In this document: positions 34,820 through 60,324 of the stretch, one piece after another | Numbering within the stretch: position 1 is the first letter of the stretch | Layout: the number at the start of each line of letters is the position of its first letter | From: Punctularia strigosozonata HHB-11173 SS5 | Taxonomy: Eukaryota; Basidiomycota; Agaricomycetes; Corticiales; Punctulariaceae | Length of the DNA stretch: 64,000 nucleotides | Reading direction: 5' to 3' | Assembly: GCF_000264995.1 (NCBI RefSeq) | Contig: NW_006767453.1 | Span: 16,272 to 80,271 of the forward strand | Program-made: the position numbers and the translations under genes | Notes under the pieces: model-generated | Seen by the model: only the letters and a program-made list of their open reading frames with translations | Told to the model about the DNA's origin: nothing | Database searches by the model: none

Positions 34820-35663
34820 ATGCAAAACTCTCAGCGAGCGATCACACCTCCTACTTACGAGGAATACCTTCAAGCTTGGGACATCCCACTCGCCCACGAT
34901 TTCTTGACGGCCACGGAAGTATCCTCTGACCCTTGGCATATTCGAAACATCAATAACTCTCCTACCATTGCCTCTCAATATCCGCAACTAGTATCTCCCG
35001 CTCCCGTACAGGCGGCAACCAGCATTTCGAACGCTCGTAACCTTGAAGCACCCTACCTTCACCGCCCTGCCCAGGCTCAGCCTTGGGATACGCAACGTGT
35101 GGTAGGCGCCATTGCACGCTTGCCCCTGAGCGTCGAATCCAATGGACTGACGTCGAGCGCTGATAAACCGAGGTGCGTTACTATATATGTGGCTGCCCAC
35201 CCGTGCGCCTTGTCTCACGCGGAGCCATCCACTACTAGGACGTCAATCGATCAAGCACCGTTATCTTCTCCTCGCCCTATCTCCACGTCCTCGGGCGATG
35301 ACCAGCCCAAGCGTCATCGGTGTGCATTTCCGAACTGCACCAGGACGTTCAGCAGGCAAGCGGATGCCGCACGCCACCACCGGCAGGTTCATCAGAACAA
35401 GCGCGTCAACTGCTTGATATGCTCAGCCGACTTCCAACGGCCGTACCAGCTCACGAAACATGGTACGCGTGTCGTCTGCATTTGCCAGTCCCAACGCAGA
35501 TAACACTTGATTGCTCCTTGCAGAGCGGGAGAATCATACAATCGACAAGCTTGAACCCCGAAAGGCCAAACCGTCTCGGCCCACGCGCACCTCGTCGCGC
35601 GCGAGACGATTTCCAACGACGCGCTCGCTGGACCTGCCGCCATTTCCACCATCAGAGGTGTGA
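34820..35663 (+). CDS. C2H2 zinc-finger protein, subtype C, member 1
   Basis: Three exons (34820-35172, 35239-35462, 35524-35663) give 238 residues. The N-terminal region is Ser/Pro/Ala-rich and opens with TYEEYLQAWDIPLAHDFL. Finger 1 is CAFPNCTRTFSRQADAARHH... (C-x4-C-x12-H-x4-H). Finger 2, CLICSADFQRPYQLTKH, loses its frame at the last intron, and the final exon supplies ERENH, which completes C-x2-C-x12-H-x4-H. The C-terminus is basic (RPTRTSSRARRF). Exon phases (2,1) and the 140-nt last exon are identical in member 6 (51607-52389), so they are paralogues. A nuclear DNA-binding role is inferred from the fingers only. Confidence 0.75.
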
Positions 35664-37630
35664 TTCATATTGTCCGGCCTTATTCACGAGACGCCTCGCC
35701 TCGCACTTGCACTCCGCTCTACTCCAGTATTGCCGTGAAAGGGTAAAATGCGGTTCTTCGCCCCTCCCCGAGGATATCTCCTCCTTGCATCGCCCAATGA
35801 TTTATTGCCTGTTTTCTCATGAAAGTCGTTCGAGGTCGTGATTCTTCGTCATTCAATTCCCCAATCGTCACTTTTTCGCTTGTATCAGCCCCGTGGGCGC
35901 GCATCTCATGCGCATTTGCCATATTAATGTTCGAATATTTTACTTAACCGCAAGACCGTCGACCATTGTTTCACAGAAGTCACGCATTGCAGTTCGGAAA
36001 GGTAAACATAGACACATATGAACCGTGCAGTGTTTTACAATGAATGTGACCAGCAACTAACTTAGATATAAGTTACAGGGTGGCAAACAAAGAAGGGGAC
36101 AGGTTTTGTCGTCGAAGCGTCGATTTAGACCTGACGCGACCATGCAATACGACGGCAGGGAATAAGCTCGCCGAAGATGGCCGCCATGGCCGTTGCGAGA
36201 CGCGTGCGAGAGTGTTGTGTTGGCGATTATATTCTCCTGTAGATAATGCGCGTCGCGACGAGGTGCCGGTTGACGTATCGGCAGAGGCCTGTCAATATTG
36301 TGAGCGGTGCTCAGATATCCTGAATGCCATGGAATAGCTTACCTTCATTGAGAGATACGTCTTGTTGTTGCCGGGTATGCATTCGTGAACCCGGTTGAGT
36401 CTCTACGAGCCGCCGGCAGCTCATCGTGGTTTCGGACTCTGCCGCGGGCCGGCAAGTCCAGAGCCACACGTGGGGCGACAAGGTTTGCCCATAGGCGGCG
36501 GGGGCCGGCAACGATGCGACATAGTTCAAATGAAAATGGCGCACGCCAGAGGCAAGAGAACAGGGGAATTGCAGAGGGCACGGATGGATCGGATGGTTGT
36601 TGCCAGCAAAGCCCGTTCCGAAGGCTTAAGAGCACTCAGCCGCATGAATATGAACTCTTGCGTCCGCCGAGCGCCAAAAGAACGCGCCATGCGTAAGAGA
36701 TCCGGGAGAGCAGCGCCATCGACGCCAACGCCAGCGGCGCAGTGAGCAAGCCTAATATGAGCCCTCAACACGTGTAACTGAACCGGTTGGCGCCAGCGAA
36801 GGATGCGAGTGGCGTGGGTCCGCCGGGAACAGAAGGGCTTCTCATTGGACTTCGTTGATCCATTCATACGCCCATCCCATATTAGCCCCGCTTTCAGCTG
36901 CTCGTCTTCATCCAATGCTTACTGGCGTGCTCATACTGAGAGGCGGCTGTCTTGCCAACAAGGAGTTTCACAAAACGCAAGCACCTCACGACCCGCGAGC
37001 GAAACGTGTTCGCCTGTGTTCGGGAGCACAGGTTCTCCCCCATATTATGGGCGCTTAGATCCGCTGCAATTCTACACTGAAGATTCCCCGCAACCCCGGT
37101 CCGACTCTGGCGCGTGTTTGCTATCGTGTCTGTCCGATTTGCCTGTCGCGACGTGCATGGGAACGTGCCCACCGGCGGTAACAAGACAAGGCAACGATGC
37201 ATGGGACGGACATGCCGATGTCATACTACCTTTACTGCCACGCGGTGCTCCTCCGGCGCTGGCGTACACCAGCGGAGCGCAGGTCATCTATCCTGGCAAG
37301 GCCGTTCTCAAGTTGTGCGGCGCCGTACTGTACGCTCAGAGCAAAACGGAGCGCAGTCGAAGCACGTCACCAATCCGGCAAGGCTGTTGCCAGCGTCACC
37401 AGGCTTTGCTGTTCAGAAAGCGCAACTCGCCTACCCTCAGAGTATGTCGTGTCGGTGAAAGTGCCTTATCCTGCATTGGGAGATGAAGCTGCAACAACAA
37501 TCCTCATCTCCGGAGTGAACGGGATCTGAAGTGCGCTCCCCTTCTGCCATGTCTCAGGTACTGGAGATAAACTGAGATCCTAGAAATATATGCAAGTGCA
37601 GTATAGAAACCCAATAATGTAGCAGTATGT
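35664..37630. other. Mostly gene-free; one unexplained open frame
   Basis: A 227-codon ATG-led plus-strand frame at 36803-37486 is Cys/Ser-rich and without known motifs. It could be coding or chance. Nothing else is convincing. Confidence 0.35.
36803..37486 (+). CDS. Hypothetical open frame, unrecognised
   Basis: Single open frame of 227 residues starting at an ATG. It has several short Cys clusters (LLSCLSDLPVATCMGTC) and no signal peptide, membrane segment or domain I can name. It ends 144 bp before the stop of the disulfide isomerase, which is on the other strand. Codon use is unremarkable, and introns are absent, unlike every confident gene here, so it may be spurious. Confidence 0.2.
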   Translation: MRVAWVRREQKGFSLDFVDPFIRPSHISPAFSCSSSSNAYWRAHTERRLSCQQGVSQNASTSRPASETCSPVFGSTGSPPYYGRLDPLQFYTEDSPQPRSDSGACLLSCLSDLPVATCMGTCPPAVTRQGNDAWDGHADVILPLLPRGAPPALAYTSGAQVIYPGKAVLKLCGAVLYAQSKTERSRSTSPIRQGCCQRHQALLFRKRNSPTLRVCRVGESALSCIGR

Positions 37631-39140
37631 TCACAGTTCGTCCTTGACATGAGACTCTGTCGTAGGAGTGCTCTCCGCCTCCGGAGCAGCGGGCTCGCCG
37701 GTCGCCTTCTCTTCCACCACCTGAGGTTCAGCTGCGCTCTCCGCAGCCGGTTCCGGCGCATCCGCCACAACACTCGGATCGGCCTCAGCTGTCTCAGTGG
37801 CCTTCGCCGCACCCGCATCTGGGGTCTTGGGCCTCGCCTTCTCCTCCTGCTTCTTCGCCGCCTTCTCCTCGCTGCTCTCGGGCTCGCCGTCCTTCTTCTT
37901 CAAGTACTGCCCGCCCATCACGCCCGCGTAGCCGTTCGTGGAGTGAAAGTCCGCCCCGGCGCCGTTCAGCACCGCCTTCTCGAAGTCGATGAGGTCCGAG
38001 AAGCCGCCGTGCGCGAGCGCGATGCGCTGCGCCTCCTGCTTGCGCTGGATCTCGAGCTCCTCGTCCGAGACGACGTACTCCTCCGCAGCTGCCTCCTTGT
38101 TCGCGATCGTCAGGTCGGCGGTGCCGTCCAAGACCGAGTCGAAGAACTTGGACAGCGAGTCGAGTTTCAAGATGCCTGCATAGTGCCGCGTCAGGAAGCG
38201 AGTCGATGTAAAATGTAAAGAGTGGATGATAACTCACCCTCGAAGCGGACGTATTCTGTCTGCCCTGGAGGGTAGATCAGCACCTTCGCCTGATCCCTCT
38301 CGCCGGCCTCCAGGCCCATCGACACGGAACTCTTTCCCTTGCGATCGCGATGGCTCGCGAAGAGGATGTCCTTTCCATATTTGACGCTCAAGACCTGCCA
38401 CAGCAGCGGGATTTTCTTGTCTTTGGTCAGGAGAAGCGCCCGGGGTTTGTCTACATCCTATACGGCCCCTGTCAGCTACAGCGTACTTGAACCACAAAAG
38501 CATATCGTACAGTGTTTTTCCACCCAGGAATATCATCGACGTTGTAGAGCTTCTTCACGGAGTGCGGTATCCGTCTTGATACCCAATAGAAGAACGCGCT
38601 CGCGGTCCGTTCCTGGCCATCAAACTCCATGGGAGGCGCCTTTCCACCTCGAGGGAAGAGCTGTTCGAGGTCCATGATCAGGGCATGCGACAAGAGAACG
38701 CGCGGTGGTGAAACTCCACCTTGACGGTAGGGAAGCCCTTCACGCCTTGCTCGGCGCACAACTTCTTGTTGGCCTGAGCATCGCAGTCGACGGCGTAGAA
38801 GGGAACGAGAGGATAGAGACCGAGTGCCGCCTTGCTGTACTCCGGCGCCATTCGTTGACAATGCTGAGCGCGGAAGACATGAGTGTGTGGGCGATCGCTC
38901 GATAGCTATGAATACATACCCCACACCAAGGCGCAACGAATGCCACTGCAGAGGTCGTCTATCGCCTGATCAGTGTCCAGATTTCATGTCGAGGACGTCG
39001 ACGCTCACGTTCTGCTTCATGACCTTCCTAAACTCCTTGGGTCCGATCTGCTTCACCACCGTATCCTTCGGGAATAGCGCAGCCGACACGAAGGTCGGCG
39101 CGACAAGCAGCGCGAGCATCAACAGATTCCTTAGCCCCAT
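37631..39140 (-). CDS. ER protein disulfide isomerase (Mpd1/P5-like)
   Basis: Six exons (39140-39009, 38958-38920, 38863-38720, 38660-38511, 38457-38238, 38175-37631) give 409 residues. A signal peptide (LLMLALLVAPTFVSAA) precedes one thioredoxin domain. The active site WCGHC at about 55-59 is split by an intron between WCG and HC. PEYSKAALGLYPLVPFYAV and the cis-Pro segment VKGFPTVKLF follow. The second half (KPRALLLTKDKKIPLLW, ILFASHRDRKG) looks like a thioredoxin fold without a CxxC. The C-terminus is acidic, Ala/Glu-rich, and ends HVKDEL, an ER-retrieval signal. The enzyme forms and shuffles disulfides in secretory proteins. It is a conserved gene isolated inside the zinc-finger region. 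Confidence 0.93.
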
Positions 39141-39869
39141 CGTTGTCGTTGTCGTCGTCGAGTCGTTGTCTCGAGCAGAGTCGAGCAGCGAGCGGTGTGC
39201 CAAGAACGAGCCGGTCGGGGCGCCATTATATGATCCCGAGGATGTGACACGTCAGTGTGAACTTCTGGTTGGCCGGCGCACAGGCGCATCGCTTGAGGCG
39301 TCCGGGGGTTACCACGGCTCCGCTTTCCCGATGACTTCAGCGCATCCCGGCGAGGTGGTACGGCCCACGGAGAGGATCGCCTGAGAGCTGCTCAGGTTCT
39401 CCTGTGAAGGCTTGCAACGTGTCCCAGAAAACCCTGGGACAGTGCCAATAAGTATATACCTTGAAGTGGACTTCGCAAACGGCTTTGTCATATGAGATAA
39501 GATACGTAATTGCGTTCCTTATAGATACAGAGCAGGTTGAGGAAATGCGGGCCTATGTGTCGACAAGTCCCCGGCGGGTTAGCATACATATTGTATAGAT
39601 GTCCGGAAGTTACGATAGCAAGCAACAGACAACACGGTTCGAGAGCATTGATGGGAGCGAACGAATAAATATGCGAGTTTTAGGAATCGAGACGCTGAGG
39701 GGTCGCGGTAATCCTTCAGGAGTCGTAGAAGCCGTGAGGCTGGATCGATCGCAGGAAAATGTCAGATAGATGATCTTGTGATCTTGACAGAATACTTGAG
39801 CAAGGAATTACGAGAATGGAGGTGGCGAAGGGAGCGGATAGTAACTTGAGGGGGCGGGAGCGTATGGGA
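39141..39869. other. Gene-free gap
   Basis: Holds the isomerase promoter and the 3' flank of the zinc-finger gene at 39870. No gene seen. Confidence 0.5.
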
Positions 39870-40908
39870 CTACGAAGTGCTTCTCCCGTCCTGGCAGATC
39901 ATGTTAGTGAGGGAACTATATGACGGCGAGCACCTCACTGTGCTTGACCAGCTGATCCTTTCGCTGGAACAACCTGTTGCAGTCAAAGACGCCGCATCTG
40001 TACCTGCGACCTTTATGTACCTCGGCCTCGTGCCTCTTCCTGTCGCGAACACGATTGAAAGGTTTTCGGCAGTACTCGCAGATATGGGCGAGCCGAGGCG
40101 TGCCCAAGAATCCTGCGGTCGACATTGGTGCCTGAGGAACGGTGAAGGGGACGCTGTCTTGCGGTCTTGTGTATGATCCAGAAACCCACTCAGGCGCCTC
40201 CGGATACCTGGTGCCAACAATAATGTCGGTCGTGCAGACGCGCGCTCAAGAAGCATACTCACATAGGGGTGGACAACTGCAGTTGTTGAGGGTTCACTGC
40301 CTCCGTCGGCCACGCACTTGTGACCGGGTACCTGCAAGGGCGAGAAAACTAAATCGTAGATTACCGATACCTAGGGGTAACTCACTGATACGGCAATGCG
40401 AAGTTGTCTGCCGCAGGCCTGCTAATAATATCATCGTGGGGACAATATATGACAAGCGTGTGGTTCTCCAACGTACGCGTACGTGAAGTCTGAGAGGTTC
40501 TGTGGTCGAGGGATCGCCATTTCTCGGGCAGGGATCGCCGCGGTGGTTTGCGGCATGCTATAATATGCGGTGGTGGGATGAGATGGGTTGACGAATTGAC
40601 TAATCGAGGAATGAGCGGTCGTGCGCATGCGCGTTCGGATCTCGTACTCACGAAGGATATGGCTCGGATGCTGGTCGTTGTTCATGGGCATTGAACGTCG
40701 GGAACCCTCCATTTGGAGGAGATATACTCGCGTAACCCCCAGGATATGCGACATCTGGGACAGGCGTCGCGATGTGCGATGGACGCGTCGGCGAGTTGCG
40801 CGAGGTCTCCGAGAACCCGCCATCGAATTCATACCGGTCGATGCACCGATGGGAGTTCTTGAAGAAACAGCATGCACTACAAGCACAGTGGGGATTATGT
40901 CCTTCCAT
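39870..40908 (-). CDS. C2H2 zinc-finger protein, subtype B, member 2
   Basis: Six exons (40908-40652, 40599-40483, 40421-40386, 40331-40263, 40207-39934, 39890-39870) join in frame to 257 residues. The N-terminus carries a compact Cys motif, GHNPHCACSACCFF, like those of members 4 and 7. A long Pro/Ser/Thr/Tyr-rich middle follows. Finger 1 is CEYCRKPFNRVRDRKRHE... (C-x2-C-x12-H-x4-H). Finger 2, CGVFDCNRLFQRKDQLVKH, has only its first His: the final exon adds just DGRSTS, so this finger is incomplete as spliced. All three inner exon junctions are phase 2. Function unknown; DNA binding inferred. Confidence 0.72.
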
Positions 40909-43683
40909 GATGGAAGTGGAGCTATTGTGCCATCCGCCGGGGGGTTTGGGTAACACCGTCGGGTCTTATGCCCTCTCGACGATCCGAAACACGACCCATC
41001 CTCACGCACTCCGGTCGATTCTGCAGCGCCGCTCGGGAGAGGCAGAGCCAGAAGAAGGTGGCACCCGGGGGAAGGGGCGCCAGCGCCACATTGATCATGA
41101 CCGCTATGGAAGGGAGAGGCCGAACGAACGAAGTTCGTGGCGCGGGCGAGTATAGGGACGCCAATAGGGCCCGTAAGCAAACGGGGCCAACAGGCTGAAA
41201 GAACATGAAAATGGTAGGGGTAACGCCATGTACGTACACGGGGCGCGCGAGAGTGCACGCTCCGCCATTACGATCAGGTTCTTGGCGTACGGCGTAATTA
41301 TAATCATGCCGATACCCACCCCTGCTATTCAAGAATTTGGGTCAGGGAGAGGGTGTGGGAAGTAGCCGACTGTGCACGTGATCTAAATACATTGACGAAG
41401 AACTTAGGTTGGGAGACCGGCAGCGCGTGCCGCGTCATTAATTGGCAGACCTTCTTGAGGGACGGAACCGATCGCTCTGTCAATTGACTAGTTATGCAAC
41501 CTGCTGGAAGCACGATGCCTCGTGGGGCTTGCGGAATTGAACGGGGCGGGCCACCTCGTCGCTGGGTGCCGAATCAAGATGGCGCGCTCGCGATGCCTTT
41601 ACGACCAATCTTCTATACATACAACGGGTACAGCGCCCCCGGATAAGGCCGTTAGCGGGCGGGTCAAGGGCGACCTCGTCATCTCATCCGTTCTCCGGTC
41701 ATACTGTGAGATCCCGCGAAGCGTTCCATCCCGGCGTTCGTATCAGGCAAGCAGGCCATGCCCACCTACGTATCCCATCAGCTCAACATCGCGGATTCTG
41801 ATCCTTAGTCGCGGGCAGGTATGGATCGCACCGGATCCATGTCCAGATCCGCATTGGATACTTCGGCTTCATACTGTACTACACGCTGTACCTTCTATTG
41901 ACTGTTCTGCCTTAGCAACATACTCTGAGGCGTCAAGATTACCACGATCATTTGCGCATCTTGCGTACCTGCAGCGAGTACATTTCCGAACTCGTCGGCG
42001 TTCATTGATGCAAGATAGCTCGCACGTCGTGGTACACAACAAACAACATCGGGGTCAGATCGGGATGGCTGATGATCGCCAAGAGGAGCAACGAGAGCGC
42101 TCGGTGAGTATCGACGCGGGCACGCTCCCTCGGAACTGACCTGACCAATATACAACCATTTGCAACAAGCCTGAGCGCGGCGTGAAAAAAAGAGGTCACC
42201 TCCAGCTCGTCACCGTCACCACTATTGCATATCGACTTCATACAATGAGGAATGGAAGAAGACGCATTGCGCCGTGTTGCACACATGATACACGAGAAAG
42301 CGTTTCGATATCATCCTCGGAGGGCCGAAACTAAGCAGATTCCGCTTTGGTTCGTTTGTGATGATCATGATTTGTACGAGTTCGTACAATCAAACTGCTT
42401 AGTAATAGTACATCGTGGGCGCGGCATACACGCGACGATTGACACGCGTTGTGGCGCAGTAGAGATAAGTAAGTACTTATTTCCTACAGCTCTCGCATAT
42501 TCTTTGGTTGTACCCTCTTTTGTCATATCACCTGGGGCATCCATTTGCATGAGAGCGAACTCGAACTGCGGGCTACGAGTTGCGGGATCATCGATCAGGT
42601 GTATCTGGCAGTGTGACACGTCACACGCGCACGTAAGCGCCGGGTCTTCGCAATGCAAATACTTACTACGAAATACAGTAAGTACGATTCTACGAAGCAG
42701 TCCGTAGTAGTCTCCGGGCGGATACAGAGTATGTTGATTTCTGAGATATGAGCATTCGCATCTCGCTGGTCGTCAAGTCGACTTCAGCGCGGCCGGTAAG
42801 CCGAACACCCGCTTTGTCCGCAGAACATGTCATCTAACACCGTGCTATCAGCTCAGTTGCACCCACGTACTGCAAGCCCATTGGCCAACCCTGGCCACAA
42901 GACTCAAGACTGTCAAACCATGGTAGACATCGTATACTCTGGACAGACGGTTACTCCCACCTCGGCTGGCTCATCAGGATCGTTCTAGTTGTAAGTCGAC
43001 CGAAAGAGCATTGGTGTGATCTTTGCGTCGGTTTCAATGGCCATTGTAGCTGACCACTACAACTCTGAGCAGAACAGACGACGGGACTGTCGTCTATCAA
43101 AGGGGTATACGGACACGTCCATCAAATGGTGCATCAAACGGTGCGGGACCGAGAATAGATTACTATGTGAGCTATTCAGCAATTGGGAAAGGAATGTAAC
43201 GCAGAGGTCGTTCCCATAGGTTATGTGCGTTGAATATTGGTACCAAGCGCGTTCAAATCCGGAGCCCTGATCTTTCACCCCCAACCCTACCCCACAATGT
43301 GGCGGTCCCCCCCTCCTCATGCTCGGACCGTCGCGCCACAGGCCAGGTTCATCGCCAGGGTCCGTTCATGGCAATTTTCTCGGCCATGGACTGCGTGTCG
43401 GTTGTCGCCATGGCGCTACCATGCTTATCCTGATGCCCCTCGGATCGGGGGTGTGCACGAAGTGGGGAAAGGTCCGCCTGAATTTGGCTCTCTCTCTATC
43501 TAGAATGGTTCATTCACATTTCCCAACCCAACATATACCCTGAGAGAAGCTCATCACAACACGATTGCAGGGCACACCCCACGTGGCAAGCTATGTAGCT
43601 CCTCTGGCCTCTTGGATGGACCGCGCCATAAAAACACAGGATCCGAGTCTGTACCTCTCGGTCTCTACGATTGTCCACCCACG
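40909..43683. other. Gene-free or unrecognised stretch
   Basis: No supported gene. A minus-strand frame near 42365-42658 begins with a CxC-like cluster (LTCACDVSHC) that vaguely recalls the N-terminus of the subtype B zinc-finger genes, but it has no ATG and no fingers downstream. Confidence 0.4.
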
Positions 43684-45296
43684 ATGCACCCGTTTGGATC
43701 TTCCCGGCCGTGTCAAGCACCAGCTGCAAGCGACAGGCGCGACTCGCAAGCTGTCTGGCTCCGTCAGGGATCCTCCGTCTTAGGCCACCGACCCTACCTT
43801 TGTGCAACGCCGCCTTACAACATCGACGTTCAAGAGTCGGACCAGTCCGTCGGCGGCCAAGATATCATCTCCCTCTCCGCTTCCCTCTGCGCTCTCGCGA
43901 CTCCATCCCGCGACCTCGCGGTTCCCAGGACGTACGACCACTACGTGCCTGCCCAAGCTGAACCCTCCTACCCTCTCACAACGCCGCCTTATAGCCTAGC
44001 GGCTCATATGGTGTATCCGCCCGCCCTCGATTTTAGCGTCCCTAATCAGCCATACTGTCCCGCGACGCCAGTCCACGTCTCGGCGGTTCCTTCACGATAT
44101 ACTCCCGAAGAATTTACTCCAGCTAACCCCTCCTACCCTCCTGCGACGCCGCCCGGCCGGGATCCCGCCCTCCCCAACCAGCCATACCTTCCCAGGCTGT
44201 CATCCTACAACGAGACAATTCCTTCGCGATATGCTCCCCAAGCATCTTCCTCGGCCACCCCGTTTTACCCTCCAGTGATGCTGCATCAAAGCACTCCGAC
44301 TCATATGCCGTACCCGCCTGCTCCCGACCCTGCCCTCCCGACCCCGCCATACTGTCCCGCGGTCTCATCCCGGAACACGGCGGCTCTCCCGCGACCTGCT
44401 CTTCAAGCGTCTATCCCAGCTGCCCCGTCCTACCCTTCCGCATTGCCGCCTCACACCACCGCAACTCATATATCGCACCTGCCCGCCTCCGACCTCGCCT
44501 TCCCTAACCCATACTGTCTCTCGGTGCCATCCCACAACGCGAAGGCTCCTGAGCGGTGCGGTCTCCAAGCGTCTTCTGCAGCTGCCCCGTCTTACCATCC
44601 CGCAACGCCGTCTCATAGCATCGCTGCTCTTACATTGTACCAGCGTGCACTTGTGCCTGCCCTCTCTACTCCATCGCAATCTCTTGCGATGCCATCCCAC
44701 AACGCTGCATTTCCGTCGTCGTATGCGCCTCAAGTGCCTACCCGAGTCGCACCGTACTGCAGCTTCACGACATTGCCGCACGACACGCCGCGCGAGGTCA
44801 CTCCGGTGTCGAAATTACTTCCTGAACAACCTTCGTACGTTCGCGTTATGTATATGCGAGCTGGAGGCGAGACTGATGGTGGCCCTACAGTCCGCCGAGC
44901 CAATTGTTACGTCCCTCGACTGAGACAGTTCTTGCCCCCCTTTCGAAAGCCGCACGCAGATCAGGGTGAGTCCTCGGGAGAATCAACGATGCACGATCTC
45001 AGTGTGTAACAGAACCCGGATCGTTCCCGATCCTACGCTACTCCCCGACGCTCGACTTTCGTGCCCATTCGATGGATGCGGGCATACCTACAAGATGAAA
45101 AAAGAGTATCTCCGTCATCACAGAGAGAGGCATTCAGGGCAGCCTCTTTTACGCTGCTCGTGCGGAAAGACCTTTGCTCGTAGGTACCAGCGGGACAACC
45201 ACTGTGAGCATCGCTTCAACTGCCTACGTCCACTTGTTGATCGTTCTCCTGCTAGTGAAAATCTCGCGGCACCAAATCACAAACGGAACATTCTGA
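43684..45296 (+). CDS. C2H2 zinc-finger protein with Pro-rich repeats, subtype A, member 3
   Basis: Three exons (43684-44965, 45003-45203, 45256-45296) give about 507 residues if the ATG at 43684 is the start; an upstream exon cannot be excluded. Residues about 96-357 are five degenerate units of about 55 residues rich in Pro, Tyr, Ala and Ser (YPPATPP..., PYCPA, APQAS). Finger 1 is CPFDGCGHTYKMKKEYLRHH... (C-x4-C-x12-H-x4-H). Finger 2 is CSCGKTFARRYQRDNH. The last intron follows that His in phase 1, and the final exon provides a further His (LKISRH). DPTLLPDARLSC before finger 1 matches members 5 and 8. Intron 1 would be only 37 nt, the weakest point of the model. Confidence 0.68.
43969..44754 (+). 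repeat. Coding tandem repeat, about 165-bp period
   Basis: Five diverged copies inside exon 1 of the zinc-finger gene, four of 54-55 residues and one of about 44. Each contains a variant of Y-P-P-A-x-P-P, then a PALPNxPYCPA-type core and a SRYAPQAS-type end. Confidence 0.7.
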
Positions 45297-47833: not shown

Positions 47834-48661
47834 CTATGGATTCATCTGCGTTGACCCAGAGTTTGCGTGCGAAGTAGATGTCTGTGCTCTCGCCAACTCC
47901 GGGCACGAGCGAACTACGATGCACGCGAATTTGTGAGAAATTATGATGCGAAGAGTCGCAGTTGTGCCCGCTCACAGTGGTTGCGTAGATGCTCAGTGCG
48001 TTGAACAGTCGTGCCGCATCTGTGCGGGCACGAGATCCTGATGCCATCGTGTACCTCCTTCTCGTGCCTCCTTAGGTCGTGCGCTCGAGTGAAGCGCTTC
48101 CCAGAACATTGCGGTTCATTGCATACGTGCATCCTTGTTGGTGAGACATCTGATGAGGTAGATGTTATATCTATCAAGACGGCAAGGGAATGACAGACTC
48201 ACGGTGCAACGGTGCAGACACTAATCCCAGGGGTGCGGCGACTGAAGCAGCACCACTGCCTATTGGCCATCTTCTAACGCGCTGCGTTGAGTGTCATCCA
48301 AGTGATCAATATACATGGCCCACTGGTAAGTTGGGGCCATAGTAGACGGCACCGATCCCTGAGCGGTGAGACGACCCGAGTTTCTATACATCAGCATGGT
48401 CAGTCATTATGATCGATGCAAGAGGACATGTGGAAGACAGTACTGAGGATATGTCGTTGACATGCCGGACGTTACGTGAGGAGGCAGAATGTTTCCGGCG
48501 GGACGCGCGGTGTTGCTGGCAGAATGTGCCATATTGGGGCCTCGGAGAAAGACAACGTATCCAGTGGGGTTTGGGGTTGTCAAGAGCAAGAACGGCTGCC
48601 CGGTGCCACCAGTTTTGCAATCAGAGCAGCTACACAGGGACGAGTGGGTTTTCGATGACAT
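47834..48661 (-). CDS. C2H2 zinc-finger protein, subtype B, member 4
   Basis: The ATG at 48661 opens MSSKTHSSLCSCSDCKTGGT, closely matching the start of member 7. Exon 1 runs to about 48445. The middle exon joins (about 48200-48380) are ambiguous, so I do not fix them. The finger exon 48170-47976 encodes CNEPQCSGKRFTRAHDLRRH... (finger 1) and CPHRCGTTVQRTEHLRNH (finger 2), and is followed in phase 1 by the last exon 47913-47834, which continues FRSCPE and ends QMNP. With that join, finger 2 has Cys four residues after its His, so it may be a C2HC type. Function unknown. Confidence 0.6.
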
Positions 48662-50616
48662 GTCGGGACGGTGCTGCTGAAGCTGAAGAGGTGGGCTGTC
48701 GAGTTATATAGGTCCGAGGTGTCTTGAGCATCGGAGGAAGTTTGTGAGCTGGCGTATGGCGGCGCCAAGCAGACCATCGTACCATCGTACCTCATTTCGA
48801 TATTCGCGACCCGAGTATGCGCCAGGTATCTCATATTGCGGACACCAATGCGTGTTGCCACTGGGAAGGCCTTGCTGGTGTATGTGGCGCAAGGGAAGTC
48901 AAACCAGAACGCCAGTGCCAGCGCCAGTTGCTCACGCGTCGCTGCCTGAACCCTATTTCGAATATTGAACACATACAGATAACACGAGGTCAAGTGACGG
49001 ACGCACCAACGGTTTCCATTTTGCGGGATTACTCGCTACAGGGTGCCAGCTCCGCGATACTGTAACACGGCCTAGCATTGGATGTCTTTGAAGGGAGAAG
49101 CTGAACGACGAAGTTGAAGCTGCAGCTCGACAAGTTGTGTTAACGTCTCGCGGTACGAGGCGAGTGTTGTTCTGTGTCAAACACTGCTGTGGTTGGAGCA
49201 GACAGCGATGGGCCAGCGCTCAAAACCAAGGCCCGAGGATGACGGCTACCTCTCACGCTTGTTGACGGCGCCGCTGATCTGCTACTCACCGCGTTTCTTT
49301 TCTCCTTTTCTCCAAGCTTCGTACATCTGAAGGAGGCTGAATCATATCGAGTGAAATGTTCGCGAGCGGCACAATGAAGTACTCTACTCTGTACCTTGTC
49401 ATAGTCGGCGAGACTCCAACTATCTGAAAAATGTCGTGCTACATCGAGTTCGCAGGCTCCCGCACCCTGTAGTAATAGTAGACACGCCTGTACATAAGAG
49501 CTTAACTATAAGCAGTGCATCATCACAGCAAGTAAGCTCGCTCAACGTACCCGGATCGGCCTCTCCGCCGATGAACGAGTCGCAGTGAGTAGTGATAATA
49601 TCGATGCTGTCTTGTCTTAAATCGTCCTTGTGAAGCCTTGTTCGAAGATACTCCTTGGTTTTCAGAATGAACGCAGGACGCACGGAGCGTGTGTTATTAC
49701 GTAAACATAGAGAGTCCCCCTGACCGGGAACCCGAAAGCACTTAGTCGGAATCGGAGGTCCGTAGGCTGCACAGTTGGAAGAAAATATAATCGCAAGAAA
49801 GAAACCACTGGTCATGTAGTACTACAGCTGACAGCATGAGCTGTACGTCGCATCTTCTCGTTACTACTTGCACCGTGCGGGATATTTCTAATATACGATC
49901 CCCTGTATTTGGCAGGCACTGGCGCGCTCGTTTCCATGCAAAATGGGTGATCATTAGCTCGGGAAAAGAGCTCGGGCATTTATGGAAGAAGATTCGACAG
50001 ACCAATGGTTTGCCGCAGTCATTGCGAGAATTGTTTATGTTCGTTGATATCCCGGCTGCTCGACTGGAGTCTGGGATCTCGAATCGGTCAAAAGCTGCCT
50101 TCAAACGCGCCCATCACTTACCGATGCTGGCAAAGGGCTGTGGCTCGTGACGGAAAACACTGATGCATCTCGTATAACCTCATCCGGCATAATTGGGGCC
50201 GATCTTTCTCTCACCAATGGCGGTATGTGTCTGATCTGTGTCGACCCTTGCCCGAGTCCGTGACCCTACGCGTTACAATTTTTGGCTCTACCTCCGACGA
50301 GCCTCTCGTGTGTGCTGGCAACCTTACCGTAACCACCCGATCAGCGACGACACGGCTAGGAGACCCTAATGCTGCCCAAACTTGAAACAGCCGCGGCGGC
50401 GCTTACCGCTGCCGAAGTCTACGAAGCTTTTACAGCTTGGCTCCGGAGCGGTACCTGCGGATCTATGAGTCACTACGTGCAAGGCAACGTACTCCGAAGC
50501 AAGCAACGAGATGCCTCCATGCGATCAGAGAGCGATAGCAGGCTGCGTGGACTGTCGGCCCATAAACTTCGGGTATGAATCGTTGCTCACTCCCTTATTT
50601 AATGCTTTGACGCTCA
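48662..50616. other. Gene-free or unrecognised stretch
   Basis: Short open frames on both strands without motifs. The longest, minus strand 49742-50104, is not recognisable. Confidence 0.4.
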
Positions 50617-51379
50617 ATGAACCAGAACAAAAACTCGTATTTCAGCAACTTCAGAAACTTGGGCTCTGCCCCCTCTGCCCCCGAGGATGGCGCCGCACTC
50701 AACGATACGATGACCTGGAAAGCTCGCGACGAGCAGGACATTGCCAACATGTCACACTATCTCGGTGCACAAAGGTCCGACATGCCCCCGCCATCCCCCT
50801 CGCCTGTCATGGACACAGACGGAGCACCGAAGTTTGATACAGACTTCAATTCCTCTGCATTCACTACGGCGCGTTTCGTTCAACAACGTGTGGCTTAAGG
50901 TTTTAAATTCGAAAGTCTAGCTTGCAAGCTGCACCATCAGACGGGGCACCGATGCTGTCGAATGCAGAGCATGTCATACCCCCGTCCGACTTGACAGGCG
51001 TACAAATTACAGCAGCGTGAGTTTATCACGCAAGTGGTCAGAGTTCTACGGTCTCATGCTGTGTTCATCACCAGAACGTCGACCCCACGCTCTCTTGAAC
51101 CCATCTCGCTACCTGACGGTCGCTTTCGGTGCCCTCTCCCCATGTGCCGCCGTAAGTACAAGCATAACCGAGATGATTCTCGTCATTATACGTAAGCGCA
51201 CGACGATCTGCGTTCTCTGCGGTGTGCGTGCGGAAGGACCTTCCAGAGCACCTCCAAGTATCAATTGGTCAACCATTGTGAGTATTGCCCTGACGACTTT
51301 CGTCGGAGCACTGCTAACCCATTTCTTGCCGGCAGCGAACTTGTCGCGGGAACATCTCGCTGTCGACGCCGCGTTGTAG
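50617..51379 (+). pseudogene. C2H2 zinc-finger gene, subtype A, member 5, one stop in finger 1
   Basis: Four exons (50617-50887, 50929-51016, 51075-51277, 51336-51379) match member 8 in layout. Both have a GC|GTGAGT...CCAG|A junction before the finger exon, both have SLPDG/YPDA-like sequence before finger 1, and both have the last intron in phase 1 after NH. All exon phases are consistent over 202 codons. Finger 1 reads CPLPMCRRKYKHNRDDSRHY and is then broken by TAA at 51193-51195, just before its last His. Finger 2 (CACGRTFQSTSKYQLVNH) and the C-terminal exon are intact. Either a very young pseudogene, an assembly error or, less likely, read-through. Confidence 0.65.
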
Positions 51380-51606
51380 ACCTCTGCCTTTCCAACTCGA
51401 GGGTTGACCGTTGGTCGACATATTTCAGGAATGTAGCACGCACCGTGCTGATGACTGCACATCTTAATTCGCATTTCTGGTATTTTTATTCGAACCCGTG
51501 AGAGGGCGCCCCAGGGATGCACACATAGTATTGCTGGTCTATAGAGTAGCACATTACATGGCATCGCACTAGCGCACCCCCGAGCTTGAAGTCAGTCTGT
51601 TTGATA

Positions 51607-52389
51607 TTATAGCGCAAGCACTGCACCCGAGGATAACGTCTCCGGCACAGGGGCGACATACTCGTCAGTCCTCCGCATTGGCTGCGCGACAGGGTTTTCG
51701 ATGTGATGACATTCGCGTTCTGGATAGTGACGCAACAAGAGTGTATCTGCAATCGAGCGATTATATTGAGGCTGAGGGCGCACCATGTTTCCGGAGCTGG
51801 TATACCCTCTGGAATGTCTTCGAGCAATGGCCACAACAATGGCGCTTCTTATCGTGGACCTGTTGGTAGTGGCGCTTAGCATCCGCGTACCTGCTGAATG
51901 CCCTTGCACAGCCAAGGAACTTGCAGCTATGACGCCTGGTGATCGGAGAAGGAGGGTCGCTCGGTGGTCGTATAGCATCGGGGCGCGAGATAACGGACGT
52001 ATCCGCGATCAGGTTGGGACCACTGAGCGGGCGTGAGAGATTGCGGAGAATGACAGAGATCACACAGCACACCTTTCTTGAGCGCCCGCGGCCTGATAGT
52101 CATAAGCAGCATGTGGTGGCGCGGACGCGGTGGGGACCTCTGCGAGGCACATGGTCTGCACGCCGTTCTGCGTGAAGGAATGAATCAAACCCTCCGTATC
52201 CCGATAAGGCAGTGGGGCAGCCTGTATATGGGTCGGGGTAGCCAGCTGGGGAACCCGATGGGCGACGTTTGCCGTCAAGCGGACAGAGTCGAGGGAAGCA
52301 GACGGGGCTTGGGACGAGAACTGAACCCAAGGACTGGGACTGGCAAAAGGATCGTCCCAGAGATATTGCCGGTAGGGAGGTGCAGTCAT
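51607..52389 (-). CDS. C2H2 zinc-finger protein, subtype C, member 6
   Basis: Three exons (52389-52073, 52022-51784, 51746-51607) give 231 residues. The N-terminus starts MTAPPYRQYLWDDPF, comparable in spacing to TYEEYLQAWDIP of member 1. Finger 1 is CKFLGCARAFSRYADAKRHY... (C-x4-C-x12-H-x4-H). Finger 2 is CGHCSKTFQRVYQLRKH, and the next exon brings RHYPERECHH, offering possible further ligands. Exon phases (2,1) and the 140-nt last exon equal those of member 1. It is convergent with member 5, with 227 bp between them. Confidence 0.75.
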
Positions 52390-54541: not shown

Positions 54542-55585
54542 TCAGCCAGCGAAGGACAGCGTGGGCCGGATCCTTCGCCAATGAATAAATCTGATGGAAT
54601 GTCCTGAGTCGATCCGGGAGTTGTCCAAGTCCTGAGGTGTCGGAAAAGTGTGAGTCGAAATGATACCTAGTAGGTTTATGGAGTTGGTGGGGCGGCGCTG
54701 TGGTGTCTGGTCCGGTGCTTGACGGTGCTGATTGTTCATGGCGGCGAGGGTTGATGGAACGGCGCTATAGAGGATGACACCTGCGCATATACAGGACATG
54801 AACGGTCTGGATAGACATGCGCATGGCATCAGATCAAGTAGCACTGGAGACTTCATGGGTTCACGTACAGTGGGTTTGGAGATGCTCCTTGCGCTGTACC
54901 CTGTGACCGCAGCCATACGGGCAATCAAGCCGCACACCATCGTGAACCTGTTCCTTGTGCCTTTTGAGATCGTACGCTCTGGAGAAGCCATGAGTACCAC
55001 AGCACGGCGCTTCATAGCATATGTGCCTCATGGCTCCCTGTGGAAGGGCGGCTGCGAAGAGCGTAATTAGTGTCCAGGCAGAAATCGTTTGCGGAGAAAC
55101 ATACCATCCGCCGACGAGGATGGAAGAGACGGAAACGCTACAGGGGCCGCGCTGCTGCGGGACACGATTGGGGACATTCTGATGCACAAGGCTCAGAACG
55201 CATCCAAGCGATCGAGATGCTAGCTCACTGCTGGGCATGTATTCCATGAGGCAGAACCTGAGCTGAATGCGAGGGAATACAAACCCTCCTATCACTAAAC
55301 GTCGATAAGCCTTCGGTGACCGGATGTTAGGGAGAGTAAGAATGCGTACAATTGATACTGCTGATGCGACGTTGCTACGGCGTGGTTGCGCACGGCGCGC
55401 ATCGTCTGCATCGACGTTGAGAGGCTGCCAGATGGATGAGTAGCATTGGTAGCAGGGATCGCGGCAGAAAAGACAACGTGCCCGACCGGATTATCCGTTA
55501 TCCCAGACAAATACATTGGCGTGGAGGTGCCTCCTCGCACACATCGATGACAGCCGCAAAGACTAGAATGCGTCTGGGTGACCAT
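54542..55585 (-). CDS. C2H2 zinc-finger protein, subtype B, member 7
   Basis: The ATG at 55585 opens MVTQTHSSLCGCHRCVRGGT, nearly the same module as in member 4. Exon 1 ends near 55357 at GTACGC. The middle exon or exons (about 55100-55300) are uncertain. The finger exon 55037-54869 encodes CYEAPCCGTHGFSRAYDLKRH... and CPYGCGHRVQRKEHLQTH. The last intron (54868-54781) follows that His in phase 1. The last exon, 54780-54542, is long and adds about 80 residues. After splicing, Cys directly follows the last His. Function unknown. Confidence 0.6.
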
Positions 55586-58500
55586 GGTGGGTGAGACAAT
55601 GCTGCCCGAGCTGTCTTCAGTACGTGATATATGTGCGCTTCCCCATCTTGGTCCCTCGTGGCGTTCGAGCTCATTTTAAGGATGTTGAACTTGGCGGCGC
55701 CATGGCGCGGACACGCCATGATCCTATGAGGATGTCCGGACGAGCAACACCACAGCGAAGCGTGAACCCGTGCGCATGGTCGCGCCAGCACATCGATAAG
55801 AATGCGCCTCCCCCACACCTCAGTCCGTACTGCGCATTACTCGATACTGCGAACGCCAACATTCCGATTTCCTCAGGATATCCGTATATTTCCGTCGATA
55901 GCACTGTGCAAGTCCCGTGGGCCACACAGACATCTAGTATTTGAGTCGTGGATGTCAGTGTATATGCGATATAAGCGGTGGACACACTAGAAAGTTATGG
56001 GGGCCGGAGGGGCCTAGTTTGGGCGAAGGTGCCAGCACCGGTTGGTGCCGCGAGGGCGCGAGCCGAGTCACGGTATTAGTAGAGGTTTTGATAGGTAACT
56101 GAAGGCGTATGTGGCGAGGTAAACGCATAGAATACGACGGGAAAGGTGGTGCTCGTCCCAATCCCGCCCAGCAGCGGACTGAGCGGACAAGTCAGTGGAA
56201 GAGATTGAACCATCCCGCGAGCAGCGGAAGCGACAGCGAATCTCGGGTCGCACAATCGGCGCTTGATCGCGGGAGCGCTTGCTCGGCGCGAATAATCCAA
56301 ACTGAGACTCAGTCGAAATCGCATGTGTCCCCGCAGCAGCCACGTCTGCTCAAATCTACTAGAATCAAAACGTTACTCAGAGCTTCTGGAACGGACAGAT
56401 ACATGAGAAGTTTGATACCACATGTCCACACTATGAATACCGTGCAGCGCGTTCATCCTTGCGCTCTCAGCGCTTCAGCTGTGGATCCATCCCACGATAA
56501 TCATCTTCGTCCGGACCCAAGGCGCCTGTCGATATGCAATCAAGAAATTTAGGGCAATCTAGAGCTTCCAAGGGAAGATCCACCAGTGCCGCCAATTCCA
56601 TACTTACAATGGGGCAATGGGAAGCAGATGGGAAAGCCAGTCCTGCCTGTACACGCCCAAGCTGAACGTGATTACGTAACGTCATCAAGGTCCCACATTC
56701 CGCGCGAAGTCCCTTGGTCATTGCAACCATGCCCATACGAGGCCATCGTCCCGCAACGAAGCCGAAGTTGATCCCGTGACAGATAGCCCCCATGAAGGAT
56801 GGTCACTACTTCGATATCTCCGTCTTCAACGCAAGGCCTCATCGATTCGACAAAAAGTGCCATTTCGGGCGGATGCGCTTTGATTATTGGCTTGGAAGGA
56901 CAGGATGAGGCCCCACGAACTTTACGTGTTATGACGGTGCGGCGGTTGTGGTTCATTCATGTAGTTCCGCCGGGGATGACGGGCGTCCAGTAAGCGAGCC
57001 TGGATTATCTTCGTCGATTTTGTCGTTCGCCGGACTGAAAAAGGAAAACCACAGTCACACAAGGCGCAACAATGCCATGCGAAAGAACAGCCCTAGGTTC
57101 CGCTGCTCATCTAGGCAGTGTTGGCGTCTCCTGCCATTGGCCTATCCATGATACACGTAATTTCTACTCCCTAGCTGCTAGTCCATCTATGGTCCGTGTT
57201 CGTGAACGTCCTTGCAGTCACAACGTGACACACACGCGAACTCCAACAGGTTCCCTGCCCGCAGTCAAGAACATCAGAAATTATGAGCTCCTCGACCCAT
57301 TCCAGGATGCCAGGAGGGTGTTATGCGTATTGAAATCGCTCATCGTAGGAGTCACGCGTGTCACGACCGGTTGACTTGAACATTCCCTCAAATATCTTGA
57401 GGGGACGCGCCGGATCGCTACTACACGCGCCCTCACTCCACCCCAACTGATGATGGATCGTGCTACATGCTCCTCGCCTTCTGGGTCGTCGTCAGGAACT
57501 GACGAAGCGAACAATATCGCGTTCGAACTACTCGAACTCTTCTCTAAACGCAAACCCTCCGTCGCCAGCCCGGCTGGTCAGGTCGCCATGCCAATTCGCA
57601 TTCCAGCCGCACCTGCAGCCGGCATCGGCGTTGGCGAGGAGCGTGGTCTCTAACACAACTCGCTAGAGGCCTCCCCCGGCGCAGTACGTACCTGCGCTGT
57701 CATCTCCACGCGTACAGGGCTTGACCATGTCTTCCCAGTTCGTCGGCCGTGTTTCCAAGTGCGCAGTCGTCGTTGAAAGCTGATCCAATGGCGTCGTAGC
57801 ACGCCGAAACGCTCCTCGAGCGTGTCCTTGTCGGGGACATGAGTATAGCGCAGGCAAAAGCCCGTCATTGGGCTGAAGGTGTCGATTCTGGTCCCGATTA
57901 TGCTGCTTCGTCCCCTTACAGACGTTTAGCATAGGTACCTAGGTGATGTTTATTTGCGTAGGTGTTGTGCTAGGCTGTGCTGACATGATCGCTGCTCCGT
58001 TATAATCTGATTCTGACCTTGGCCTTGGCTATGCCCCATCCAAACCCAATTTATGAGGCGGTGAAGTTCCTATATCGGATCACCGGTACGCTGTCCGGAA
58101 CGCGTTTCGTCAATATTCAACAAGATCAGCGGAAGGACGAATGTAGCTACTGTCTATTGGTATCTGCGTGCGACGATGCGAGCTACTGTCATCGTACAAT
58201 CGGCATCTAATTTTTCTTCGTACTGAGCGTTTGCACATAGCTCGCGCTTCGCAGGATTACGCATCGTCATTAGGCGACATTCATCAAACCTCCTGCATCG
58301 TGCTGGTCGGCCTAACCGAGTACCTGCGAATGCGGCAAATTTGGATGATAACTGGGCGCTACTGAGTAAGGCTTGGGCCGACATTCCTCAAGTGGTAGAA
58401 TGAAAGGCTATGGAAGGTCTCTCTTCTCAACCCCAAGACTCTCAAGCTATATACGTCCTCCGCCGGTACGTGCACGCATGCGTGAGTGCTGTACATGCAG

Positions 58501-59566
58501 ACGTGACCGACACAGTATTTACAGTCACGTCCGCAAGTATGGAACTTTATGACAATACAGAATGACTGCGCGAAGAAATCTGACTTCTGCTTTCGTCGCC
58601 GGAAACAGTGCACCCAATCGCGGCTCCCTGAATTCAATGTGAGGCACGATGCGTATGCAGGTAACGCCTCCAACTTTCTCACTTGCATTGTGACTGACAC
58701 TAGGACGCGAGGATGATGACCATGCTCGTCGTGGAGCTCGCTCAATCGACATCGTGACACAGCTATATTTACACGCGTTCCGATGACAGGTGAATTCTCA
58801 CCTTCTCGCAGGCGGGCCGTTGAATTGGGCCGGCGGATTTCGTCGACTCCAGGCTGCGCTTTCGTCCGTTCAGGTTTCCAAAACAAGCAGAGTGCATGGA
58901 CGTTGTGCGCAGAGGCCGAGACAGCTACTCGCTTTTACGTGTGAGATGCACTGGCAGTACCGGGGAATGGCATGACCACGAATCTGCGGCTGCTTCGGCC
59001 ACGGACCGAAAAGTAAGGATGAAACGTTGCCGACACCATCTGGCGGGATCACAGACTCTTTACGAAGACGAACTTGAAGAAGATTCTGAATGCCCCGCTG
59101 ATTATACCGGTGCATGCAATTTGAACCCTAAAAGCGATTCCTAAATAGTAAGTTCTTCTCACCCAAGCGTATCATTGCGGTGTTGACGTCGACCACGCAG
59201 GCACCGGAATCACCGTTCCTTCCTCCTTTCTTCCTCCCCGCTCGGGGACGTGCCACGCACCTCGACCGCCTCCGCCTCCCCTCTGCCCACGGCTGCGATG
59301 AACTCGCGCCTCAGCCCAGAACCGGGCCGTCGTAATGGGATTCGACTACACGAACACCGCCCGCCCGCCCGTCCGCCCGCCAAGTCACATGCGCGGGCTG
59401 GGCCGCACAGCAGCTCACCGGTGTAATTAAGCATGGCCACCCTCCCTCGCCCCCCTTCCGGACCGTCGCCGAAGCCGTTGTCTGTGGGATCTTGGGGAAG
59501 GTCATCATATCCTTCGGTCCCTGCTGGGTCCACCGCCCTTCTCCCTCCTCTGACTCCCGGCTCACG
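55586..59566. other. 4-kb gene-free or unrecognised stretch
   Basis: No supported gene. A plus-strand ATG frame at 57450-57653 (MMDRATCSSPSGSSSG, then FELLELF) resembles the first exon of zinc-finger member 8 in layout, but no finger exon was found after it. Confidence 0.4.
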
Positions 59567-60324
59567 ATGGACCAGCCTCACCGTACCTCGTCTTCCGGCG
59601 CTGAAGATACGACAGAGGAGCCGCAGACCCACGCGTTGCTCGCAATGCTCCAGCACATACTGCAGTTCTCCAACGCCGCCGCCGCCCTCCCCTACCTCCA
59701 AGTTGCCGTGCCGTCCCCTCTCGCCGCGATCCCGGGCGCGTTCACTCACCCTCGCCACGACGGCTTGCTCGATTTCGTGCAGCAAGCACAGGGTCAGTTG
59801 CAGACGGTGTATGTCCTGGGCTGCTGGGTGCTCGTCGATCCGCAGTCGACTCTGACAATATCCCGCCAGCTCCTCGGCTGCACAATCTCCCCCGCAGACC
59901 CCGCCGTCGTCGGATTCGGCGACATCTGAGATTTCAGGTACTGCGGACACGTTAGCGTGAGTCCAACGCGAAGCCAACAGAACCAGAGCAGCTCGCTCAC
60001 CCTTTGTCTCCTCGCCAGAGACCCCACCATATACCCCGATGCTGTCCTACTCGCCAACGGCCACTTCGGCTGCCCGGCCCCTGCATGCACTTGCAAGTAC
60101 AAGCACAAGCGCGACTACAGCCGCCATTATAAGGAGGTGCATACGGAGCTGCCCGATCTGCGCTGCTCCTGTGGGAGAACCTTCAAGCGCACCCGGCCAT
60201 ATCAGCTCAAGAACCACTGTAGGTAACAGTTACTGCAACCCAGTCGCGCCAGCCAACCTTATTCCCTACCATAGTGCAAGCTTCGCCAGGTCATCAGGCC
60301 AAGAACGGGATGTTGTGTCCATGA
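59567..60324 (+). CDS. C2H2 zinc-finger protein, subtype A, member 8
   Basis: Four exons (59567-59806, 59898-59956, 60019-60218, 60275-60324) give 182 residues with consistent phases. The N-terminal part is helical-looking (THALLAMLQHILQFSNAAAA) and then Pro/Ser-rich. DPTIYPDAVLL precedes finger 1, CPAPACTCKYKHKRDYSRHY... (C-x4-C-x12-H-x4-H). Finger 2 is CSCGRTFKRTRPYQLKNH. The last intron interrupts it in phase 1, and the final exon reads LQASPGHQ..., giving a possible second His. Without splicing, the frame would read NHCR and stop. It converges on the transporter gene with 178 bp between stops. Confidence 0.75.

Follow-up and report, generated by a model that had tools for sequence, protein, structure and literature searches.

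An old cluster of eight two-finger C2H2 genes in Punctularia strigosozonata, with interleaved subtypes that may stem from block duplication

Why do eight diverged genes with two C2H2 fingers lie together within 25.5 kb of a basidiomycete genome, and how did their subtypes come to be interleaved? We analysed a 64-kb stretch of DNA (hereafter the window) in which the first-pass annotation had placed eight such loci, and a six-frame pattern scan together with a profile scan bore them out at the places and on the strands claimed (Table 1). The pattern scan (26 matches listed, the rest mostly chance) picked up finger 1 of seven of the eight members and missed member 5 because of its in-frame stop; the six-frame profile scan of the whole window recovered all eight, with member 5 split into two pieces. 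No ninth finger locus was found by the profile scan in any of the six frames of the 64-kb window, non-member matches scoring at most 5.9 bits and the top match in one shuffled window 11.0 bits. Several neighbours had been described as degenerate, but the same scan of the window revealed no further finger relics, and extra degenerate members were dropped. Automatic splicing over-spliced, giving no gene models for members 2 and 5, and its models were discarded; we therefore retained only hand-picked introns at or just before the fingers. Our choice of acceptors places the end of member 2 at ~39808 (previously 39870) and that of member 7 at ~54736 (previously 54542), the other bounds being kept. 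To the left of the cluster lies a NUBPL-type gene (26.6-27.7 kb) and to its right a transporter-like gene (60.5-63 kb). The concentration of eight loci is more than chance, as a simple binomial for eight in 25.5 kb of 33.57 Mb gives ~1e-7 even assuming 120 such genes genome-wide.

Table 1. Members of the cluster and the divergent B/A spacers, in window positions
Feature	Positions	Strand	Details
Member 1, subtype C	34820..35663	+	fingers 35321-35461; finger-2 intron 35463-35523; tail ERENH...
Member 2, subtype B (outlier)	39808..40908	-	N-terminal HCACSAC; fingers 39940-40080; intron 39891-39938; tail RREKH
Divergent spacer B2/A3, unit 1	40909..43683		2.8 kb; between starts of members 2 and 3
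Member 3, subtype A	43684..45296	+	fingers 45062-45202; introns 44966-45012, 45204-45255; long Tyr/Pro-rich repeats
Member 4, subtype B	47834..48661	-	N-terminal THSSLCSCSDC; fingers 47977-48123; introns 48150-48202, 47914-47975
Divergent spacer B4/A5, unit 2	48662..50616		2.0 kb; between starts of members 4 and 5
Member 5, subtype A	50617..51379	+	fingers 51130-51276; introns 51017-51074, 51278-51335; in-frame TAA in finger 1
Member 6, subtype C	51607..52389	-	fingers 51785-51925; finger-2 intron 51720-51783; tail ERECH
Member 7, subtype B	54736..55585	-	N-terminal THSSLCGCHRC; fingers 54870-55019; introns 55052-55104, 54807-54868
Divergent spacer B7/A8, unit 3	55586..59566		4.0 kb; single copy in genome bar one 44-base match
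Member 8, subtype A	59567..60324	+	fingers 60071-60217; introns 59957-60018, 60219-60274

The members are homologous in their fingers. As first described, finger 1 has the form C-x4-C-x12-H-x4-H in members 1, 3, 5, 6 and 8 and begins with C-x2-C in member 2; its Cys-to-His spacing is 13 or 14 residues in members 4 and 7. Four ligands per finger can be placed in all eight members if the finger-2 intron is spliced, as predicted, at the chosen acceptor, and the second His or Cys of finger 2 then stands at x3-x6 with these hand-chosen acceptors. Members 4 and 7 have a C2HC finger 2. In type A, finger 2 carries C-x1-C and its second His stands at x5-x6, or at x4 via another acceptor in member 8; given this odd spacing, its zinc binding may not be normal. 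The C-x1-C form was present in all three A members of the window and absent from all seven other A-like genes examined, C5:389k (CPCC) being scored among these as C-x2-C. The canonical C2H2 linker is TGEKP, and no linker resembling it occurs in any of the eight members, which carry HQNKRVNC, HDKKRHCC, HKGRRYRC, HDGIRISC, HDGVRLDC, HSGQPLLRC, HTELPDLRC and HDDLRSLRC instead.

Scanned as spliced finger segments, seven of the eight members (member 5 omitted) all matched zf-C2H2 (PF00096) at E up to 1, and only members 1 (28.4) and 2 (28.1) passed the curated cut-off of 25.2 bits, the other five scoring 14.2-21.6. An exon-by-exon search of the genome returned at least 28 PF00096 matches, none of them on the cluster's contig. 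Since five of the seven scanned members fall below the cut-off and this lower-bound search had no match on the contig, counts of fungal C2H2 regulators based on PF00096 may be too low. A Ser/Pro-rich N-terminal part, which had been ascribed to all members, was found in members 2 and 3 only: Ser+Pro fractions of the hand-cut N-terminal stretches were 0.15-0.30, and 473 six-frame ORFs of the window averaged 0.18, with their 90th percentile, which these two members exceeded, at 0.25. The N-terminal parts of members 4 and 7 are homologous (E 8e-10), and a genome search with the N-terminus of member 7, which includes the type B element C-x-C-x2-C, gave matches at members 7 and 4 only. Judged from their sequences, the eight genes, seven of them with open finger frames, most likely encode transcription factors.

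All eight members also share an intron position. Directly after the first zinc His of finger 2 there is one base followed by GT, the start of a phase-1 intron, in 8/8 members, compared with 6.7% of the window's 4185 CAY triplets and 0/8 after the first His of finger 1. Recovery of a second ligand by splicing was dropped as stand-alone proof of this intron, since an acceptor yielding a ligand also exists for 47% of random base+GT sites across the window and the test is therefore weak by itself. Among 24 further finger pairs examined in the genome, 14 had GT at the same position, indicating that this position predates the cluster, and this splice position inside the last finger can be used for finding kin of the cluster. 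The subtypes had been credited with their own exon phases, which held for A only (hand-picked pre-finger intron in phase 2, 3/3): in B this intron is in phase 1 in members 4 and 7 and in phase 2 at another place in member 2, and in C it is in phase 2 in member 6 and in phase 0 in member 1, where the reading is doubtful; the finger-2 intron phase is identical in all eight.

In a tree built on 48 columns, with the bootstrap unsettled and 18 of 27 inner branches open, the only firm groups were the sister pairs 1+6 (96/91), 4+7 (95/88) and 5+8 (95/91). The 22 rows from outside the window, in the tree as in the intron comparison, were hand-chosen from genome loci; the finger pairs L007 (C3:1212k) and L051 (C16:571k) were unused, and loci without a clean pair and weak matches (e.g. 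C16:429k, C16:579k, C7:293k, C8:1624k and C3:1799k) were left out. The proposed subtypes A (3, 5, 8), B (2, 4, 7) and C (1, 6) thus stood as far as their sister pairs go, whereas the placing of member 3 in A and of member 2 in B was not rejected (AU 0.55 and 0.58), trees constrained to either placing scoring slightly above the unconstrained tree, whose search had overlooked them. Type A grouped with five genes on C5, C8, C21 and C24 (94/88, just below the tree tool's star). Forcing all eight into one clade cost 19 log-likelihood units (AU p 0.104), and a single origin is disfavoured, though not rejected. The family expansion first suggested was kept as in situ duplication in the three sister pairs but not as growth of a single family, the eight not being one clade in the best tree. 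Elsewhere in the genome, C5 holds another dense group of C2H2 matches at ~1.61-1.70 Mb. A B-type neighbour beside the A-type gene C5:389k (motif CACERC) was considered and dropped, as visual inspection of the flank, in three frames of a single strand, revealed no B-type finger gene.

The layout of the cluster is regular. All three A genes are on the plus strand and all three B genes on the minus strand, with every B directly left of an A; counting orders and strands gives a chance of ~0.001 for this, a post hoc figure obtained with the layout already seen. The two C genes are on opposite strands. With support for both 4+7 and 5+8, the sisters within A and those within B occupy the same two units. 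We put at roughly 0.6 the probability that this is an old regulator cluster whose interleaved subtypes arose from an ancestral C-B-A block duplicated twice, the interleaving being due to the proposed duplication of a block of neighbouring genes. The ancestral block would have comprised C followed by a B and an A gene that point away from a common spacer, and two duplications would have yielded unit 1 (C1, B2, A3), unit 2 (B4, A5) and unit 3 (C6, B7, A8); units 2 and 3 would be the later pair, with C lost from unit 2 and inverted in unit 1 or unit 3. The products would be small nuclear regulators that bind DNA through a pair of C2H2 (or C2HC) fingers at the C-terminal end; each protein would bind a short site of ~6 bp via conserved contact residues and have a diverged N-terminal part, and we infer that the B and A genes of a unit are co-expressed. 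A rather unlikely alternative is that A, B and C belong to a large genome-wide two-finger family and arrived here separately, each subtype then being duplicated locally and the B/A order being a coincidence. The relatives of type A elsewhere, the lack of a single clade in the best tree, the finger-2 GT position in the 14 other pairs and the second concentration on C5 all fit such a gathering place, whereas the regular strand and order of B and A, and the sister pairs of both subtypes sitting in the same units, argue for block duplication.

Against the block reading stand the opposite strands of the two C genes and the spacers between the genes. Comparison of the 700 bases adjoining each start gave no convincing spacer similarity between units, and shared promoter motifs were dropped, nine of ten upstream comparisons resembling shuffles; the B2/B4 upstream match is weak, being equalled by 2 of 100 shuffles, and the A set gave nothing. 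The stretches 45300-47800 and 55600-59500 (the latter being the part of the B7/A8 spacer searched) are single copy in the genome. A mobile-element origin was dropped on these two spacers, and the members are taken as neighbouring paralogues of a single region, not as mobile-element copies.

The copies are old, with saturated synonymous sites and constrained amino acids. The three closest pairs have pS of 0.74-0.77 and pN of 0.24-0.30, and dS was infinite in 20 of the 28 member pairs and no lower than 1.55 for the remaining eight, in agreement with the old expansion proposed at the outset. Of its further description as still evolving, the one sign is the in-frame TAA inside finger 1 of member 5, which is probably a pseudogene. 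The loci might all be old pseudogenes retained by chance, as this stop, the large divergence and the failure to fix whole-gene models could suggest; yet pN is far below pS, seven of eight finger frames are open despite saturated synonymous sites and the base+GT is retained in 8/8, making decay a highly improbable account. Animal KRAB zinc fingers are fast-evolving arms-race regulators, and the strong divergence between clustered copies might likewise reflect contact residues diversifying against mobile elements. Positive selection at these residues, a check proposed earlier, was contradicted by the three sister pairs, whose contacts were conserved at 21/24 positions compared with 41/98 elsewhere (Fisher p 6e-5; members 2 and 3 left out of the count). 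Diversifying selection was dropped on this reverse pattern, which argues against an arms race, and with two fingers only and single-copy sequence in both spacers tested we regard that reading as scarcely credible.

How far is such a cluster new? The available parts of PMC12295980 and PMC3998117 describe the C2H2 class as relatively expanded in basidiomycetes and under purifying selection, and those of PMC12295980 report tandem and proximal C2H2 duplicates in several Agaricomycotina, where dispersed duplicates predominate. The present cluster has the same finger class and local duplicates, but the finger-2 intron, interleaved subtypes and divergent B/A blocks are not met in those parts of the two papers, and five of seven scanned members here are under the Pfam cut-off. 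The first-pass annotation knew of no described system with this layout, a claim that goes too far as regards local C2H2 clustering itself, since local duplicates are reported in PMC12295980; what stands is the repeated divergent B/A arrangement, of which neither the available part of that paper nor a limited literature search gave any mention, although prior publication is possible. The c2h2 gene of Schizophyllum commune and Agaricus bisporus (PMC4947489, available in part) is likewise a C2H2 regulator of mushroom-forming fungi. As an old set of fungal regulator genes, seemingly grown by block duplication, the present cluster exemplifies a known type of gene cluster and does not represent a novel type of system.

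HD1/HD2 pairs undergo tandem multiplication at mating loci. By analogy, the divergent B/A pair might itself be the unit of selection, with A and B as partner regulators and the pair retained through two block duplications like HD1/HD2. Such mating loci, going by the part of PMC4915694 available, resemble the cluster in that genes for two different regulators stand as divergent pairs, of which the cluster has three, but have homeodomains in place of zinc fingers, and a mating role or allelic diversity here would be speculative. We think a selected pair improbable; if it were true, the cluster would represent an as yet undescribed regulatory or recognition locus of paired zinc-finger genes.

Msn2/Msn4 and Adr1 are two-finger yeast regulators with a finger pair and a long non-finger part. 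The cluster members share this plan, and a short site would be expected for them as well, whereas their linker is not of the TGEKP type and their finger 2 is split by a predicted intron. Member 1, the member compared with PDB sequences, matched ZNF568 and Aart best, then WT1 and Zif268-type fingers, and Adr1 (2adr) was among the matches.

A pattern scan of the window recovered finger 1 of seven members; member 5, the one missed, was added by a separate reading and has a TAA within finger 1. A profile scan of the window recovered all eight members, with no other match above one shuffled control that could indicate a ninth finger locus.

In all eight members, one base and GT directly follow the first histidine of finger 2, at the start of a putative phase-1 intron. 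The same arrangement is seen after 6.7% of the window's 4185 CAY triplets and, in finger 1, after the first histidine of 0/8 members; thus its presence in every finger 2 is far from chance (4e-10 at the 6.7% rate). With hand-chosen acceptors the introns are 48-64 bases long and the next exon supplies His or Cys, giving the tails ERENH, ERECH, RREKH, FRSC, YRSC, LKISRH, SNLSREH and LQASPGH (SSPGH with an alternative acceptor in member 8). An automatic search allowing a ligand spacing of 3 to 5 found a ligand-giving acceptor in seven of the eight, and none for member 5; members 1 and 5 have a possible ligand even without splicing. The second-ligand test is weak by itself, because 47% of random base-plus-GT sites also pass it, and the agreeing tails of pairs 1/6 and 4/7 are a better sign.

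Relatives were sought in the 33.57 Mb genome (32 contigs) by protein searches with seven finger queries (E up to 1), and the resulting family count is a lower bound. Type-A kin lie at C21:174k, C21:181k, C21:207k, C5:389k, C5:462k, C8:517k and C24:131k (contig and kb position), and further C2H2 matches are concentrated on C5 near 1.61-1.70 Mb (loci L052-L054, L011, L024 and L064). At least two genes of this C5 region (1655k and 1658k) look three-fingered, with an intron within the first finger. The same finger exon occurs there twice, at C5:1609746 (L012) and C5:1610942 (L013), 1,196 bases apart and with identical finger peptides; one copy is followed by a run of N, and the doubling may reflect either recent duplication or an artefact of the assembly. 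GT stands at the same phase-1 place in 12 of 22 non-window finger pairs hand-picked among the retrieved loci; of these 12, C13:531k lacks a ligand-giving acceptor, and at four of them, C21:174k, C5:462k, C5:1658k and C2:2525k, a possible ligand is present also without splicing. Two A-like genes read additionally both have the GT, giving 14/24, a tally of GTs at putative introns.

The closest pairs among the members, compared over finger exons, are 1-6 (60% of amino acids identical, pS 0.76, pN 0.30), 4-7 (55%, 0.74, 0.24) and 5-8 (61%, 0.77, 0.27). Of the 28 member pairs, 20 have an infinite dS and the other eight have values of 1.55 or more. In the three closest pairs, aligned by hand, helix positions -1, 2, 3 and 6 are identical in 21/24 comparisons versus 41/98 at other non-ligand positions (Fisher p 6e-5). 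Finger 1 reads R..D..R in members 1, 2, 4, 6 and 7, which under the zinc-finger recognition code would suggest a GCG-like triplet. The cluster proteins are most likely sequence-specific transcription factors, whose DNA binding, partners and targets we infer.

A tree of 30 finger pairs (48 columns) supports 1+6, 4+7 and 5+8 and places the three A members together with C5:389k, C21:174k, C5:462k, C24:131k and C8:517k (94/88); 18 of its 27 inner branches are open. Holding the eight members as a single clade cost 19 log-likelihood units (AU p 0.104), which is neither support nor firm rejection. Finger 2 has C-x1-C in the three window A members and x2 or x4 in seven other A-like genes (counting CPCC of C5:389k as x2), which fits local duplication of A. 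The N-termini of members 4 and 7 are homologous, both with C-x-C-x2-C, and a genome search with that of member 7 matched 7 and 4 only; a resembling element in member 2 is beyond the reach of this search. Beside these groupings stands a rival explanation, rather unlikely in our estimate, in which A, B and C genes arrived separately at a gathering place and each subtype was duplicated locally.

From left to right the finger genes are C1 +, B2 -, A3 +, B4 -, A5 +, C6 -, B7 - and A8 +. The A genes all lie on the plus strand and the B genes all on the minus strand and, counting finger genes alone, every B has an A directly to its right. Arrangements with BA three times, or AB three times, make up 20 of 560 possible orders; the joint chance of order and strands, calculated after the fact, is approximately 0.001. 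The supported pairs 4+7 and 5+8 sit in the same two units (B4-A5 and C6-B7-A8). From these regularities we read an ancestral block that would have been duplicated twice, C having been lost from unit 2 (B4-A5) and turned round in unit 1 (C1-B2-A3) or 3 (C6-B7-A8). The best explanation is one of old two-finger regulators with a C-B-A block duplicated twice (probability approximately 0.6); the weakness of the ligand test slightly lowered this figure and slightly raised that for separate arrival.

For basidiomycetes, PMC4947489, PMC12295980, PMC5415576 and PMC3998117 report fruiting regulators of the C2H2 class, an expansion of that class and locally duplicated members, so that the cluster is of a known kind. 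The host, too, is probably a basidiomycete.

The window covers C21:16272-80271 of a 371 kb contig, and the genes left of the cluster are ordinary. Between members 1 and 2 is a presumably PDI-like gene with KDEL, which signals ER retention, at the end of its last exon; a Pfam scan of that exon gave nothing over the cut-off. The gene to the right we take from its sequence to be a transporter, and two of its exons scanned against Pfam gave no match.

Features around and within the cluster (window positions)
Feature	Position	Strand	Remarks
zf-UBP protein gene			left of cluster
Fungal_trans factor gene			left of cluster
NUBPL-type ATPase gene			left of cluster
Diverged tandem pair	28010-28910 and 30096-30745		33-54% identity in several frames of both strands; no relation to finger genes
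Gene between members 1 and 2	37.6-39.2 kb; last exon 37631-38233	-	last exon ends KDEL
Apparent transporter gene	60.5-63 kb		right of cluster
44-base match	59176-59219		~350 bases upstream of member 8; 98% match to C10:1173885-1173928 (minus); surroundings otherwise single-copy
Repeats in Tyr/Pro-rich part of member 3	43793-44630		neighbouring copies in places 162-174 bases apart
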